A DNA stretch of 64,000 bases from Fimbriiglobus ruber (GTDB lineage Bacteria; Planctomycetota; Planctomycetia; Gemmatales; Gemmataceae): NCBI RefSeq assembly GCF_002197845.1, contig NZ_NIDE01000017.1, forward strand, positions 186,001-250,000. The letters are read 5' to 3'. The notes under the pieces were generated by a model. That model did not search any database. It was not told the DNA's origin and saw only the letters and a program-made list of their open reading frames with translations. Shown piece after piece: positions 32,158 to 47,540 of this stretch. The position numbers were made by a program, and so were the translations under genes. The first letter of the stretch is position 1. Each line of letters begins with the position of its first letter.

Positions 32158-32189
32158 TTCCCGCGTGTCGTGGCTTCCCGAACACACTT

Positions 32190-32261
32190 AGCGGTGTGGC
32201 CTAACGGTAAGGCGGCGCTCTGTTAAAGCGTCCGATGTAGGTTCGAATCCTACCACCGCTG
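32190..32261 (+). tRNA. tRNA-Asn (GTT)
   Basis: The acceptor AGCGGTG pairs with CACCGCT; the anticodon loop CTGTTAA gives anticodon GTT; the T-arm is GTAGG-TTCGAAT-CCTAC. The discriminator is G, as usual for Asn. No CCA is encoded. Confidence 0.93.
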
Positions 32262-32285
32262 TTTTGGTCGTGGGCGAGTCCGCGC

Positions 32286-32356
32286 ACGGGGATCGGCTAA
32301 CGGTAAGCCACCGGTCTTTGGAACCGACCATGAAGGTTCGAATCCTTCTCCCCGTA
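32286..32356 (+). tRNA. tRNA-Gln (TTG)
   Basis: The acceptor ACGGGGA pairs with TCCCCGT; the anticodon loop CTTTGGA gives TTG; the T-arm is GAAGG-TTCGAAT-CCTTC. The top pair of the anticodon stem is a C-A mismatch. No CCA is encoded. Confidence 0.9.
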
Positions 32357-32362
32357 TTATCA

Positions 32363-32436
32363 GGCCCGGTGGCGTAATTGGTAATCGCGGCGCTCTTAAA
32401 CAGCGCTTGATGCCGGTTCGAATCCGGCCCGGGTCA
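32363..32436 (+). tRNA. tRNA with anticodon TAA (Leu codon UUA) but class I fold
   Basis: The acceptor GGCCCGG pairs with CCGGGTC (one G-T); the anticodon stem GCGCT/AGCGC is perfect with loop CTTAAAC, giving anticodon TAA; the T-arm is GCCGG-TTCGAAT-CCGGC. The variable region is only 5 nt (TTGAT), whereas leucine tRNAs normally have a long extra arm. Amino-acid identity is therefore uncertain; it could be a non-canonical or mischarged tRNA. Confidence 0.8.
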
Positions 32437-32449
32437 TTCGACAATTTCT

Positions 32450-32520
32450 TCCGGGGTGGTGCAGCGGTAGCACGCCACGCTCTGAACGTGGAAACGCTGG
32501 TTCGATCCCAGCCCCCGGAA
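32450..32520 (+). tRNA. tRNA-Gln (CTG)
   Basis: The acceptor TCCGGGG pairs with CCCCGGA; the anticodon stem CCACG/CGTGG has loop CTCTGAA, giving CTG; the T-arm is GCTGG-TTCGATC-CCAGC. No CCA is encoded. Confidence 0.93.
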
Positions 32521-32523
32521 CTC

Positions 32524-32596
32524 GCTGGTGTAGCTCAAGCGGTAGAGCCTCCGCCTTTTAAGCGGACTATTGTGGGTTCGACTCCCACCGCCGGCA
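32524..32596 (+). tRNA. tRNA-Lys (TTT)
   Basis: The acceptor GCTGGTG pairs with CGCCGGC (two T-G wobbles); the anticodon stem TCCGC/GCGGA has loop CTTTTAA, giving TTT; the T-arm is GTGGG-TTCGACT-CCCAC. Confidence 0.92.
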
Positions 32597-32611
32597 CTCG
32601 GAAGTCAATAC

Positions 32612-32684
32612 CCCGGTGAAGCTCAGCAGGTGGAGCGACCCGTTGAAAACGGGAAGGTCGTCGGTTCGACTCCGACCGCCGGGA
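32612..32684 (+). tRNA. tRNA-Phe (GAA)
   Basis: The acceptor CCCGGTG pairs with CGCCGGG; the anticodon loop TTGAAAA gives GAA, with an A-A mismatch at the top of the anticodon stem; the T-arm is GTCGG-TTCGACT-CCGAC. Confidence 0.88.
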
Positions 32685-32690
32685 CTGGAA

Positions 32691-32763
32691 TGCGCTTGTG
32701 AGGTAACGGCAGCCTGCCTGTCTTCCAATCAGGGCGTGCGGGTTCGAGTCCCGCCGGGCGCAT
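32691..32763 (+). tRNA. tRNA-Gly (TCC)
   Basis: The acceptor TGCGCTT pairs with GGGCGCA (two T-G wobbles); the anticodon loop CTTCCAA gives TCC, with a T-T mismatch next to the loop; the T-arm is GCGGG-TTCGAGT-CCCGC. The discriminator is T. Confidence 0.88.
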
Positions 32764-32772
32764 GGTTTGATT

Positions 32773-32846
32773 CGGGGCGTGGGCCAGGTGGAGTGGCCGC
32801 GAGTTTCGGGAACTCGAGAGCGCGGGTTCGACTCCCGCCGCCCCGA
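32773..32846 (+). tRNA. tRNA-Pro (CGG)
   Basis: The acceptor CGGGGCG pairs with CGCCCCG; the anticodon stem CGAGT/ACTCG has loop TTCGGGA, giving CGG; the T-arm is GCGGG-TTCGACT-CCCGC. Confidence 0.93.
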
Positions 32847-32861
32847 CTGGCTGAGAGCGAA

Positions 32862-32935
32862 CGGGCCGTGGCGCAGCTTGGTAGCGCGCTTGCATGGGGT
32901 GCAAGAGGGCGTGGGTTCGAATCCCGCCGGCCCGA
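32862..32935 (+). tRNA. tRNA-Pro (GGG)
   Basis: The acceptor CGGGCCG pairs with CGGCCCG; the anticodon stem CTTGC/GCAAG has loop ATGGGGT, giving GGG; the T-arm is GTGGG-TTCGAAT-CCCGC. It is the last tRNA of the cluster, next to the AT-rich island. Confidence 0.92.
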
Positions 32936-33072
32936 CTTTTAGATCCCCGGTGACACCTAAACTATCGCGGGGGGGGGTGTTGACTTTGTAGTAGTAAAGC
33001 TGTACGTTAACCCAATTTAGGGCTTGTGAATCTTAATGACTCCTGTTTAACTAGAATCATTTAATTTTAATA

Positions 33073-43271: not shown

Positions 43272-44798
43272 CGAGTGAGGTCAGCCCCGGTGTCCCCGGC
43301 GATAACAAACCGCACTCACTTTGTACCGGACTGCGACCTTGCGGGCGGATTCTGCGCCCCCCGGCAAACGCTTCCCATCACCAGCATCTGGCTTGATCCG
43401 GTCGCATTCTCTGATGAATGACCCAGGAAACGAGTCGTAATGGATCGGCAATCGCACCACAGCAGCGGGTCCGCGTATCAGACGGCTGGCCCCCCGCACC
43501 GTTTTTTCCAAACGAACCCATTTTGCGCCAGGAAACTTGAGAGAGGGGGAAGCGATGGCGTGAGCATCACGGAAACTTTTCATGGCGACCCTATGGGTAT
43601 CCAATCCCATCCGGCAGAGCGTGGCCCGCAGCCGGAAGCGAGTCTTGCGTGCCGCGGTGGGGCGACCCACACCACGAAGCGTAGACCGCGAGCACTGGGG
43701 CCCGGCGATGGAGCCCCGAAAGGGTTTATGTCGTGGGGAGCCTTCCTCGTATTGGGCCGGGGGGGCCGCGCCAATCCGTCGTCATGGCCAGACGGATCGG
43801 TCCCGCCGGGGTCAGAGACTCGGGCACAGGTGCAACAGGGTGGCTCAGGAACCTGGGAGACCCGGTCGACTCCATCGTGTCAGAAGTTGGCGTGGGGCTG
43901 CCAAACCCGAACGCTCCAGGTCCGCCGGCCGGCGTCGGGCGGGACGGAAGAGACGAACACAGACGTACGCGGTGGTACCGCCAACCGAAGGACAACGAAG
44001 GGCGGCGGGACGGTCGGCCGGGAGTCGGAATGCCCCATAGTACCGTCGAGCCGGGGGAACCCGCCCCACGGGTACCCCGGGGAGGGAAGGGGGCATCTGG
44101 GAACGGACCCGTTGGAGGGAAACATGGCGGAAACATCGAGTTCCGGAACCGTGTCCACGAAACGACAACGGATCGCGGAGCTGGCGAAGCAATCGCCGCA
44201 GATGGGGTTCACCTCCCTGAACCACGACCTCGATCGCGGCTGGCTTTACGAGGCGTTTCTGGCGACACGTCGGGACGGTGCGACGGGCGTGGACGGACGC
44301 GGGTTCGAGGACTTCGCAGCGGACTTGCCGGGCCACCTGCAGTCGCTGGAAGATCGGGCCAAGTCCGGGACGTACCGGGCACCGCCGGTCCGGCGGGTGC
44401 ACATCCCGAAGGGCGGGGGGTCGACGGCGACCCGGCCGCCGGGGATTCCGACGTTCGAAGACAAGGTGCTTCAACGGGCGGTCGTCATGGGGCTGGAGCC
44501 GATTTGCGAGCAGGACTTCTTGGACTGCTCGTACGGTTTCCGCCCGGGGCGATCGACGCACCAGGCGTTAGGGGCGCTCCGGGACCAGTTGATGTCGCTG
44601 GCCGGTGGGTGGGTGGTGGACGTGGACATCCGGTCGTTCTTCGACACGCTGGACCACAGCCATCTGCGGGCGTTGCTGCAGCGACGGGTGCGGGACGGGG
44701 TGCTGCTTCGCCTCATCGGGAAGTGGCTGCGGGCCGGTGTTCTGGACCACGGGTGCGTGACGTACCCGGACGCCGGAACACCGCAGGGCGGTGTGATC

Positions 44799-46802
44799 AC
44801 CCCGCCCACAATGTTGCGAACTCGGTCCGGATCGAGACAATAATCGACCGGGCGCGGCTCCGGCCGGCCCGCGGATCGGACCGGCGTCCGGGTGGGGTGT
44901 GAGCGACCGCGGGCGCGTGTTCCGGGCCGTCCCGGAGGACACCCCATGGACGGTTCCGATCCCCCGACCCGATGTTCGAAGCCGCCCGTCACACGGGCGT
45001 TCGAGGCCACCCGCCTCGCGGACGACGTGCTCTCCGCGGCCGACGACCGACTTCTCGCGGCGACCGGACCCGCCGGCCCGGCGGAACCGGCGTCCCGACC
45101 GAGTGGCCGGCGAACCACCGTGACCGTTCCCACCCCGACAGGAGGTCGAGGCCGATGACCACGTCGCCACTGCGAGCGGCCCTCTACGCCCGCGTCTCGT
45201 CCCCGCAACAGGCCGACGCGGATACCATCGCGAGCCAGGTCGAGGCCCTTCGCGACCGCGTCCGTTCGGACGGCCTGACGCGCGACGACGAGTTCCGCTT
45301 CCTCGACGACGGGCACCGCGGAGCGACGCGGCGGCGGCCGGCCTTGGAGCGGCTCCGCGATCAGGTCGCGTCCGGCGTCGTGGATCGCCTCGACGTCCAC
45401 TCGCCCGACCGGCTGGCCCGGAGCTATGCCTACCAGGTGCTGTTGCTCGAGGAGTTCCGCCGGGGCGGGGTCGAGGTGATGTTCCTGAACCGTCCGATCG
45501 GCCGCCCCCCGGGGGAAGATTTACTCCTCCAAGTGCAGGGGATGATGGCCGCGTACGAGCCGGCCAAGATCGCCGAGCGGAGCCGGCGGGGGAAGCGGCA
45601 GGCCGCCCGGGGTGGGTCCGTGAACGTGCTCAGCGGTGCCCCCTACGGCTACCGTTACGTCGGCAAACTCGCGGGCGGCGGTCGGGCGCGGTTCGAGGTT
45701 CACGACGAGCACGCCGCGGTGGTTCGGCAGATCGTGGCCTGGGTCGGGGTGGACGGGCACTCGATTGGGGACGTGTGCCGACGGTTGCAGGAGCGGAAGG
45801 TACTCAGCCCCAAGGGGAAGGCGTTCTGGGACCGGACGACGGTGTGGGGCATCCTGCGGAACCCGGCGTACGTCGGACGCGCGGAGTTCGGTAAGACCCG
45901 GGTCGGGCCGGCCCGTCCGAAACTCCGCCCGCAGCGGGGCCAACCCGTCCACGGCCGGCGGACCGGATCCACGGATGACGCGCCGGCCGACGAGCGGGTA
46001 CCGATCCCGGTCCCAGCAGTCGTGGGCGAAGCCGTGTTGGCGGCCGTCGCCGAGCAACTGGCCGCGAACCGCACGCGGCGGCGTGAGAGCCGCCGCGGGG
46101 CGCGAGACCTGCGCCAAGGTCGTGTGGGGTGTGGCGGGTGCGGGTCTGCGTTCTATGGGAAGCCGCCGCGCCGCTCGTCCGCGAAGGGCACGACCCGGCA
46201 CTACGCGTACGACGGGTGCATCGGGACGGATGCGTACCGGTTCGGTGGGAAGCGGGTATGCGCGAACAAGCCGTGCCGGACCGACGTGTGGGACCCGGCG
46301 GTGTGGGACGACGTGTGCGCCCTGTTGGCGGACCCGGATCGCGTCCGTCGGGACTACGAGGTGCGACGGCCGCAGAAGCGAGTGAAGGGGGTCCGAGCGA
46401 GTGACCAGGTCGGCCAGTGGATCGCCCAGGTGAAGCGAGGGATCGGGCGGTTGATCGATGCGTACGAGGAGGGGCGACTGGACAAGGCCGAGTTCGAGCC
46501 CCGAGTCCGTGAGGCCAACGCCCGACTGGTGAAGTTGCAGGGGGAGGCCGAGTCGGCGGCCCAGCGGGAGTCGGAGGGCGCCGAAGTGGCGACGGCCATC
46601 GGGCAGTTGGAGGGATTCGCGGAACGCGTGCGGAGTGGACTTCCGTCGGCCGACTGGAATGCTCGGCGGGACATTCTGCGGGCGTTGGTCAAGCGGGTCG
46701 AGGTCGGAACGGGTGCCGTGAAGGTCGTGTACAAGGTGGACCCCCGCCCTTTTGACCACGGCCCCGAGAGGGGCCGTTCGCAACATTGTGGGCGGGGTGC
46801 TC
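44799..46802 (+). mobile_element. 2.0-kb serine-recombinase element with 22-bp perfect inverted ends
   Basis: The inserted segment splits the RT gene at the conserved QGGVI/SPLL motif. Its ends carry perfect 22-bp inverted repeats (44800-44821 against 46776-46797), extendable outward with one mismatch. It encodes a 70-residue ORF and a large serine recombinase in tandem. No longer target duplication is evident: GTGATCA and GTGCTCA flank it with one mismatch, which may be chance. Confidence 0.8.
44946..45158 (+). CDS. 70-residue ORF coupled to the serine recombinase
   Basis: The ATG is preceded by a strong GGAGGACACCCC ribosome-binding site. The stop overlaps the recombinase start by 4 bp (ATGA at 45155-45158), so the two are translated together. 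The middle is helical (ATRLADDVLSAADDRLLAAT) and the tail is Pro/Arg/Thr-rich. It is perhaps a recombination directionality or DNA-binding accessory factor; the sequence gives no proof. Confidence 0.55.
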   Translation: MDGSDPPTRCSKPPVTRAFEATRLADDVLSAADDRLLAATGPAGPAEPASRPSGRRTTVTVPTPTGGRGR

Positions 46803-46909
46803 AGTCCGTTGCTGAGCAACAGTTATCTGAACCCGCTGGGCCACCAGATGGCGGCCCGGGGGTTGGAGATGGTGCGCTATACGGACGACCTCGTGATCCT
46901 CTGCCGTAG
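45155..46909 (+). CDS. Large serine recombinase (resolvase + recombinase + zinc ribbon)
   Basis: 584 residues. The resolvase catalytic domain starts at the N-terminus with the nucleophile Ser in ALYARVSSPQQ (about residue 15) and the conserved Arg region VDRLDVHSPDRLARS; a recombinase domain follows (VWGILRNPAYVGRAEFGKTR), then a zinc ribbon (CGGCGSAFYG with CIGTDAYRFGGKRVCANK) and a coiled coil. The upstream AGGAGG supports the start at 45155. The last 37 codons read through the element's right inverted end into the RT gene, so the true tail probably ends near HCGRG and the final residues are host derived. Confidence 0.9.
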   Translation: MTTSPLRAALYARVSSPQQADADTIASQVEALRDRVRSDGLTRDDEFRFLDDGHRGATRRRPALERLRDQVASGVVDRLDVHSPDRLARSYAYQVLLLEEFRRGGVEVMFLNRPIGRPPGEDLLLQVQGMMAAYEPAKIAERSRRGKRQAARGGSVNVLSGAPYGYRYVGKLAGGGRARFEVHDEHAAVVRQIVAWVGVDGHSIGDVCRRLQERKVLSPKGKAFWDRTTVWGILRNPAYVGRAEFGKTRVGPARPKLRPQRGQPVHGRRTGSTDDAPADERVPIPVPAVVGEAVLAAVAEQLAANRTRRRESRRGARDLRQGRVGCGGCGSAFYGKPPRRSSAKGTTRHYAYDGCIGTDAYRFGGKRVCANKPCRTDVWDPAVWDDVCALLADPDRVRRDYEVRRPQKRVKGVRASDQVGQWIAQVKRGIGRLIDAYEEGRLDKAEFEPRVREANARLVKLQGEAESAAQRESEGAEVATAIGQLEGFAERVRSGLPSADWNARRDILRALVKRVEVGTGAVKVVYKVDPRPFDHGPERGRSQHCGRGAQSVAEQQLSEPAGPPDGGPGVGDGALYGRPRDPLP

Positions 46910-47421
46910 TCAAGCCGAGGCGGAACAGGCACTGGGCGTGGTACGCCAGTGGTGCGACGCCGAAGGTTTGATGCTGCATCCGACCAAGACTCGAATCGTG
47001 GACGTACGGGGGGACGGTTTTGACTTTCTGGGCTACCACTTCGAGACGACGCGGAAGGGCCACTTGACGCGTTGGCCGCGAACGAAGAGCCGGGACAAGC
47101 TCAAGGACACCATCCGCACGAAGACGAAGCGAACGGACGGTCGCGGGTTGCGAGTCCTCCTCGCGAACCTCAACGGTACGTTGCGGGGCTGGTTCGGGTA
47201 CTTCAAGCACAGTTGTCGGACGACATTCACGGTCCTGGACGGATGGATTCGTGGCCGCCTGCGGGCGATCCTGAAGAGACGGGACGGTCGACGGGGACAT
47301 GGCCGTGGGTGGAATCATCAGCGCTGGCCGAATGCGTATTTCACGGAGCGGGGGCTCGACAGCTTGGTAGCGGCCCACGCGAAGGCGTGTCAACCCACTT
47401 GAGGGTAAACCATCAACTGGA

Positions 47422-47454
47422 GAGCCGGATGCGGGAGATCCGCCAGTCCGGTTC
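47422..47454 (+). ncRNA. Group II intron domain V
   Basis: The 33-nt GAGCCGGATGCGGGAGATCC followed by GCCAGTCCGGTTC folds as the conserved domain V hairpin (GAGCCGGAT paired with GTCCGGTTC, with an inner stem). Domain VI-like sequence and the CCTACCCCTAT 3' end follow it. Confidence 0.85.
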
Positions 47455-47540
47455 GGAGGGAGGGGGGACCGGCACAACCGATCCTCCCTACCCCTATCTT
47501 TTCGTTTTTGACACGGCGGCCCCGGTCGAACGGCAGCCAC

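Follow-up and report, generated by a model that had tools for sequence, protein, structure and literature searches.

Large serine recombinases (LSRs) act at attP sites of about 50 bp with a 2-bp crossover core. Homing endonucleases and inteins occupy conserved active-site codons, and their broad host range comes from the conservation of these codons together with tolerance of wobble changes. Durrant et al. (2022; PMC10083194) report diverse LSRs converging on one conserved coding site, in the magnesium chelatase and prolyl isomerase genes; group II introns are not mentioned in the main text of that paper. According to two accounts of the IS607 family (PMC6188088, PMC4058570), the DNA-binding domain comes first in TnpA, the elements lack terminal inverted repeats and are minimally specific for their targets, and a tnpB gene is usually present. 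IStrons consist of a group I intron and an insertion sequence (PMC4227781), and homing of group II introns into related intron open reading frames (ORFs) was described by Dai and Zimmerly (2003), judging by the title cited in PMC3236041. IStrons and introns nested in intron ORFs are the nearest ideas to the element analyzed here. No description of LSR elements dedicated to the reverse transcriptases (RTs) of group II introns was found in the open-access literature searched, supplements aside.

The locus lies in a 64,000-nucleotide stretch of Fimbriiglobus ruber DNA (hereinafter, the window) on contig C17 of a 12.36-Mb genome. The element found there is an LSR mobile element, and thus belongs to a known class, with a new niche, a minimal build and a symmetric attP. 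We consider it very likely to represent a family of minimal LSR transposons in which crossover between a near-palindromic attP of about 50 bp and an attB formed by RT codons takes place at a 2-bp core, in a wobble-tolerant manner. The element resembles serine integrases (phiC31, TP901-1, A118, SprA of SPbeta, TnpX/TndX and CcrB) in the combination of the Resolvase and Recombinase domains with zinc-ribbon cysteines, as well as in the predicted attP of about 50 bp, the putative 2-bp core and the location of the target in a conserved gene. Unlike these integrases, it is a stand-alone 2-kb unit without phage, ICE or cargo genes, with a perfect or near-perfect palindromic attP, two insertion orientations and a target that is the RT of another mobile element. 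The targets described by Durrant et al. (PMC10083194) are cellular genes, whereas that of the present family is the group II RT. Similarly to IStrons, a transposon and a self-splicing intron are physically combined, but IStrons are stable chimeras (PMC4227781), whereas this family represents repeated independent insertions into group II RTs. Nested group II introns also land in the RT ORFs of group II introns, but retrohome by way of RNA, in contrast to the DNA recombination that the LSR would perform. The likeness to homing endonucleases and inteins lies in the reading of conserved codons; the enzyme is different, and the window element itself supplies no self-splicing protection.

The element spans 2,002 bp (44798-46799). 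Each of its ends is formed by a 24-bp terminal inverted repeat, given here on the forward strand, and the two repeats are identical at all 24 positions: the left repeat, a predicted attP half-site, is CACCCCGCCCACAATGTTGCGAAC (44798-44821), and the right repeat is GTTCGCAACATTGTGGGCGGGGTG (46776-46799). Comparison of the junctions places the 2-bp crossover core at 44796-44797 on the left (AT) and at 46800-46801 on the right (CT), the two copies differing in the first base; the element plus one core accounts for the net 2,004 bp. Between the repeats, on the forward strand, are a 70-aa ORF (44946-45158) and the LSR gene, the stop codon of the former overlapping the start codon of the latter within an ATGA. 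Neither the terminal repeats nor the small ORF were recorded in the initial annotation. The small ORF contains the motif FExxRLxxxxLxxAYxxLxP, and an iterated HMM search detects a homolog at the same place, immediately before the recombinase gene, in 79 of the 90 loci examined, the window included. Pfam returned no match to the window ORF, and most members of the family belong to no Pfam family; however, a ribbon-helix-helix domain passes the Pfam cut-off in the small ORF of one plasmid member (L177) and narrowly misses it in that of another (L178). That this protein would be a regulator or a directionality factor is a reasonable guess.

The LSR frame (45155-46909, forward strand; core of 540 aa, 45155-46774) has no stop codon of its own and continues across the right repeat into RT DNA. 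The encoded protein contains PF00239 (Resolvase, E-value 1.3e-28) followed by PF07508 (Recombinase, 2.5e-16); PF13408 itself was not matched, but cysteines 326, 329, 355 and 369 are retained in at least 97% of the family. The matches in the PDB are the recombinases of TP901-1, gamma-delta, TnpX and SPbeta; the window protein is an LSR. The score against NF033518, a measure of membership in the IS607 family, is 28, compared with a cut-off of 110. DUF4368, which characterizes the multi-targeting TndX-like LSR clade (PMC10083194), was not found in a Pfam scan of the window recombinase (E 0.001). As a small serine-recombinase insertion sequence, the element is reminiscent of IS607 but lacks the traits given for that family (PMC6188088, PMC4058570): the inverted repeats match at 24 of 24 positions, the catalytic domain comes first (residues 8-154 of 540) and there is no tnpB within the element, so that membership in IS607 was ruled out. 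The serine of the catalytic motif (S15), R86 and R89 are conserved in the family and present in the window copy. Two other positions are substituted in this copy, E133A (glutamate in 100% of the remaining members) and R136P (arginine in 95%); because of these changes, the window copy may be inactive despite the open recombinase frame and the perfect repeats. The same genome contains about a dozen other serine-recombinase genes (L009-L020) with equal scores for the Resolvase domain, mostly in a 722-aa frame and not beside RTs, which belong to a different, high-copy serine element.

All components of the target lie on the forward strand. The consensus region of group II intron domains I-IV (43601-43821; Rfam group-II-D1D4-6, cmscan 105.1 bits, E 1.1e-28) is followed by the N-terminal half of an RT/maturase (44124-44797), the translation of which ends with GTPQGGV and the AT of the next codon. 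The C-terminal half (46800-47402) starts with LSPLLSN and precedes domains V-VI (47420-47497; RF00029, 51.6 bits). The profile ranges of the two halves adjoin (RVT_1, 1-124 and 125-205; TIGR04416, 6-186 and 186-352); the C-terminal half also contains the GIIM domain, and YTDD in place of the usual YADD. Given that Rfam identifies RNA domains on both sides, outside the RT halves, the interrupted sequence, with its RT/maturase, domains I-IV and domains V-VI, is a genuine group II intron extending from 43601 to 47497. In the same genome, two 5' fragments of this intron, 94-95% identical and without an RT, are truncated copies (L022, C17:1555766-1556389; L023, C5:328852-329031), and at least six unoccupied RTs, four of them identical, contain a matching TPQGG...SP site. 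Elsewhere in the window, an array of nine tandem tRNA genes with short spacers (Asn, Gln, Leu, Gln, Lys, Phe, Gly, Pro, Pro; 32189-32936, forward strand) was observed.

The initial annotation had proposed that deletion of 2,004 bp restores an RT of 424 residues, and this is the case: when 44797 is joined to 46802, the frame is open throughout. It had also placed the junctions between GTPQGGVI and SPLLSN, with the element at 44799-46802; in nucleotide terms, the crossover is offset from these coordinates by one or two bases and coincides with the first and second bases of the I/L codon. A remnant with a similar right end, on contig C4 of the same genome, adjoins a divergent RT at the same base, as does a relative with 60% identity in another genome (G020). 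The exact restoration of the RT frame, and a weak resemblance of the window LSR to XisF (below the cut-off of that family), could suggest a programmed switch, comparable to the skin/sigK or fdxN elements, in which excision reconstitutes the RT under some condition. We consider such a switch highly improbable: the family resides in many unrelated introns and in transposase genes, the RT next to the C4 remnant is frameshifted, and there is no sign of a benefit from a regulated intron RT.

To collect relatives, 84,980 genomes were scanned with a small alignment that contained the recombinase and nothing else, blind to the flanking sequences. This resulted in 192 stretches encoding relatives, of which the best 80, with identities of about 37-81%, were kept. 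The flanks were then scanned with HMMs of the RT halves seeded from the window, the C4 remnant and the G020 relative. In 69 of these best 80 loci, an RT half adjoins the element at the same codon, so that the check suggested by the initial annotation, namely, whether homologous recombinases are flanked by group II RTs split at this codon, gave a positive answer. Both halves are present at 45 of all 90 loci, and five of the eight plasmid relatives, inspected separately, are inserted in an RT. By comparison, the control scan of 64 loci comprising other serine recombinases and retrieved relatives yielded no split RT and one RT fragment at an edge, the element itself and the G020 relative aside; among the unrelated serine-recombinase loci, 0 of 58 showed the split. 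The occurrence of the same split in 69 of 80 independent relatives, against 0 of 58 unrelated loci, therefore excludes chance.

An insertion within the ORF of an intron should be cheap for the host, and one could imagine that domain IV is simply tolerant, so that random insertions survive there and others are lost. However, all aligned RT insertions are at one codon and in one register, and the unrelated serine recombinases of these genomes are located outside RTs. Single-codon precision excludes this reading, to which we assign a negligible probability. Carriers are found in at least 12 phyla, including Planctomycetota, Chloroflexota, Pseudomonadota, Acidobacteriota, Actinomycetota, Verrucomicrobiota, Spirochaetota, Bacteroidota and Patescibacteria. 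RT-inserted relatives in this range of phyla bear out the expectation of many landing sites across hosts. The further proposal that the recombinase targets group II introns in general is upheld by the 69 of 80 loci and by the phyletic breadth, but is limited by the approximately 14% of relatives that are inserted elsewhere: RT targeting is strongly preferred, not absolute. It is apparently ancestral; in the recombinase tree, RT targets are represented throughout the clade, with non-RT targets nested inside. Viral contigs yielded only two close relatives, neither in an RT. Phage records contain recombinases of Wolbachia phage WO (HQ906663, KX522565, MN180249, KY695239) that share 35-49% identity with the one in the window.

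The distribution over RTs could also reflect an ancient fusion of a recombinase with an intron that spreads as a composite, in the manner of IStrons with their group I introns. Support for such a stable chimera comes from Candidatus Fukatsuia symbiotica, where one intron has seven full copies, scattered over several separate sites in the genome, and each of them carries the element; hence part of its spread may be due to being carried along by the intron rather than to insertion into it. The search for an unoccupied copy of the same intron recovered the RT-less 5' fragments in the F. ruber genome and these seven occupied copies in Fukatsuia, and no empty site. Nevertheless, recombinases that are 100% identical reside in RTs that are 38% (L073/L074) or 37% (L069/L070) identical, and a pair with 99.8% identity (L070/L071) in RTs with 24% identity, which argues for repeated independent insertion rather than shared descent. 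Co-inheritance of the RT and the element was rejected, given that the recombinase and RT identities are uncoupled. Over the 90 loci, the element points in the same direction as the RT in 44 cases, in the opposite direction in 22 and is mixed in 7, and both orientations occur even within the identical Fukatsuia introns. The occupied introns are of several structural classes (domain I-IV classes 1, 2, 3, 4, 6 and 7), and some near-identical copies of the element lie outside RTs altogether. The missing co-divergence largely refutes the stable chimera, which we regard as very unlikely compared with mobility of the element itself. At four Fukatsuia loci (L093, L094, L096 and L100), the flanks are the same RT half twice, in inverted arrangement (N-terminal halves in L093, C-terminal halves in L096 and L100), which suggests chromosomal inversions between copies of the element.

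The predicted architecture of attP was assessed by comparison of the element ends. The 44 elements with both ends found are 1,718-2,289 bp long, and their two repeats match, on average, at 20.8 of 24 positions, compared with 14.8 for random pairings (24 in the window). The left and right cores are equal in 24 of 41 elements, compared with a mean of 12 and at most 20 over 2,000 shuffles. In 32 of 41, the outermost base of one repeat complements that of the other, compared with 13 on average and at most 23 after shuffling. Equal cores and complementary flanking bases fit a near-palindromic attP that is about 50 bp long and has a core of 2 bp, as predicted. The most common core is AT, a palindrome. 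Placement of the core within TCA or GTG was dropped, the 41 junction pairs showing an element-encoded complementary base on each side. The remaining 17 elements, the window element among them, have unequal cores, so that core matching is looser than in well-studied LSRs; mismatched cores could be tolerated and then resolved by repair or replication. On the attB side, the information content is about 1-2 bits at the first and second positions of the QGG, SP, L and AN codons, with little or none at most wobble positions, which means that the enzyme must tolerate synonymous changes. The off-target copy L115 reads an RT-like MTPMLANL opposite to the coding strand of an MMPL transporter gene, which fits recognition of the DNA sequence.

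These features can be accommodated in a single scheme. The mobile unit, 1.7-2.3 kb and similar to an insertion sequence, would consist of the two inverted repeats, the small companion ORF and the LSR. Its ends, presumably joined in a circular intermediate, would form attP (24-bp arm, 2-bp core, 24-bp arm), and attB would be provided by the codons of the conserved RT motif of group II introns, GTPQGGV followed by I-SPLL(A/S)N. The LSR, by the chemistry expected of such enzymes, would cut within the I/L/V codon, at its first and second bases. With attB recognized mostly at non-wobble positions, very different RT genes would be usable, and the symmetric attP, together with the palindromic AT core, would permit entry in both orientations. 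Insertion would destroy the RT and spare the RNA domains of the intron, which would presumably continue to splice; because these domains are spared, the host gene is probably intact, and the insertion would be harmless to the host.

About 11 of the best 80 relatives (approximately 14%) are not beside an RT. L138 is inserted in a gene for a PEP-utilizing enzyme, and its DNA is 98% identical to that of the RT-inserted L102; L122, located in non-RT sequence, is identical to the RT-inserted L119; and next to L140 there is a gap in the sequence. Several copies are associated with other mobile elements: L088 lies inside istB of an IS21 element and L108 inside an IS5 transposase gene, the host gene of L089 is probably an IS1182 transposase, and in L060, from the same genome and with a recombinase 84% identical to that of the window, the left repeat adjoins an IS1634 transposase, the right end being lost. 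Side lineages may thus have switched to other transposition genes. These cases, nested in the RT-targeting tree, would also be compatible with a general hunter of mobile-element genes, for which the RT is the most common prey and specificity resides in conserved codons of transposition proteins. They are, however, few; L138 and L115 are in ordinary genes, and L107, L109, L146, L171 and L172, like L145, L158 and L175, have no clear target, so that we find this generalization doubtful relative to a family dedicated primarily to RTs. A related possibility, which we put forward tentatively, is that of a phylum-crossing LSR lineage preying on mobile elements, with the codons of the RT catalytic core as the ancestral site, sublineages at IS5, IS21 istB and IS1182, codon-periodic and wobble-tolerant reading of the target, and the effect of a natural brake on the spread of retroelements.

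Dozens of attP/attB pairs that differ by matched synonymous changes occur naturally in this family, making DNA recognition by LSRs testable position by position, and the family could be a source of recombinases for genome engineering. Insertion in both directions would be explained by the near-palindromic attP and the core, which is palindromic in most cases; together, these features amount to a natural experiment on LSR directionality. In this family, single-codon precision is combined with a huge host range, by way of those codons that vary least in a retroelement present in many phyla. For bacterial mobile elements, it represents a concrete example of hyperparasitism, in which the RT of the victim is destroyed and its ribozyme domains remain.
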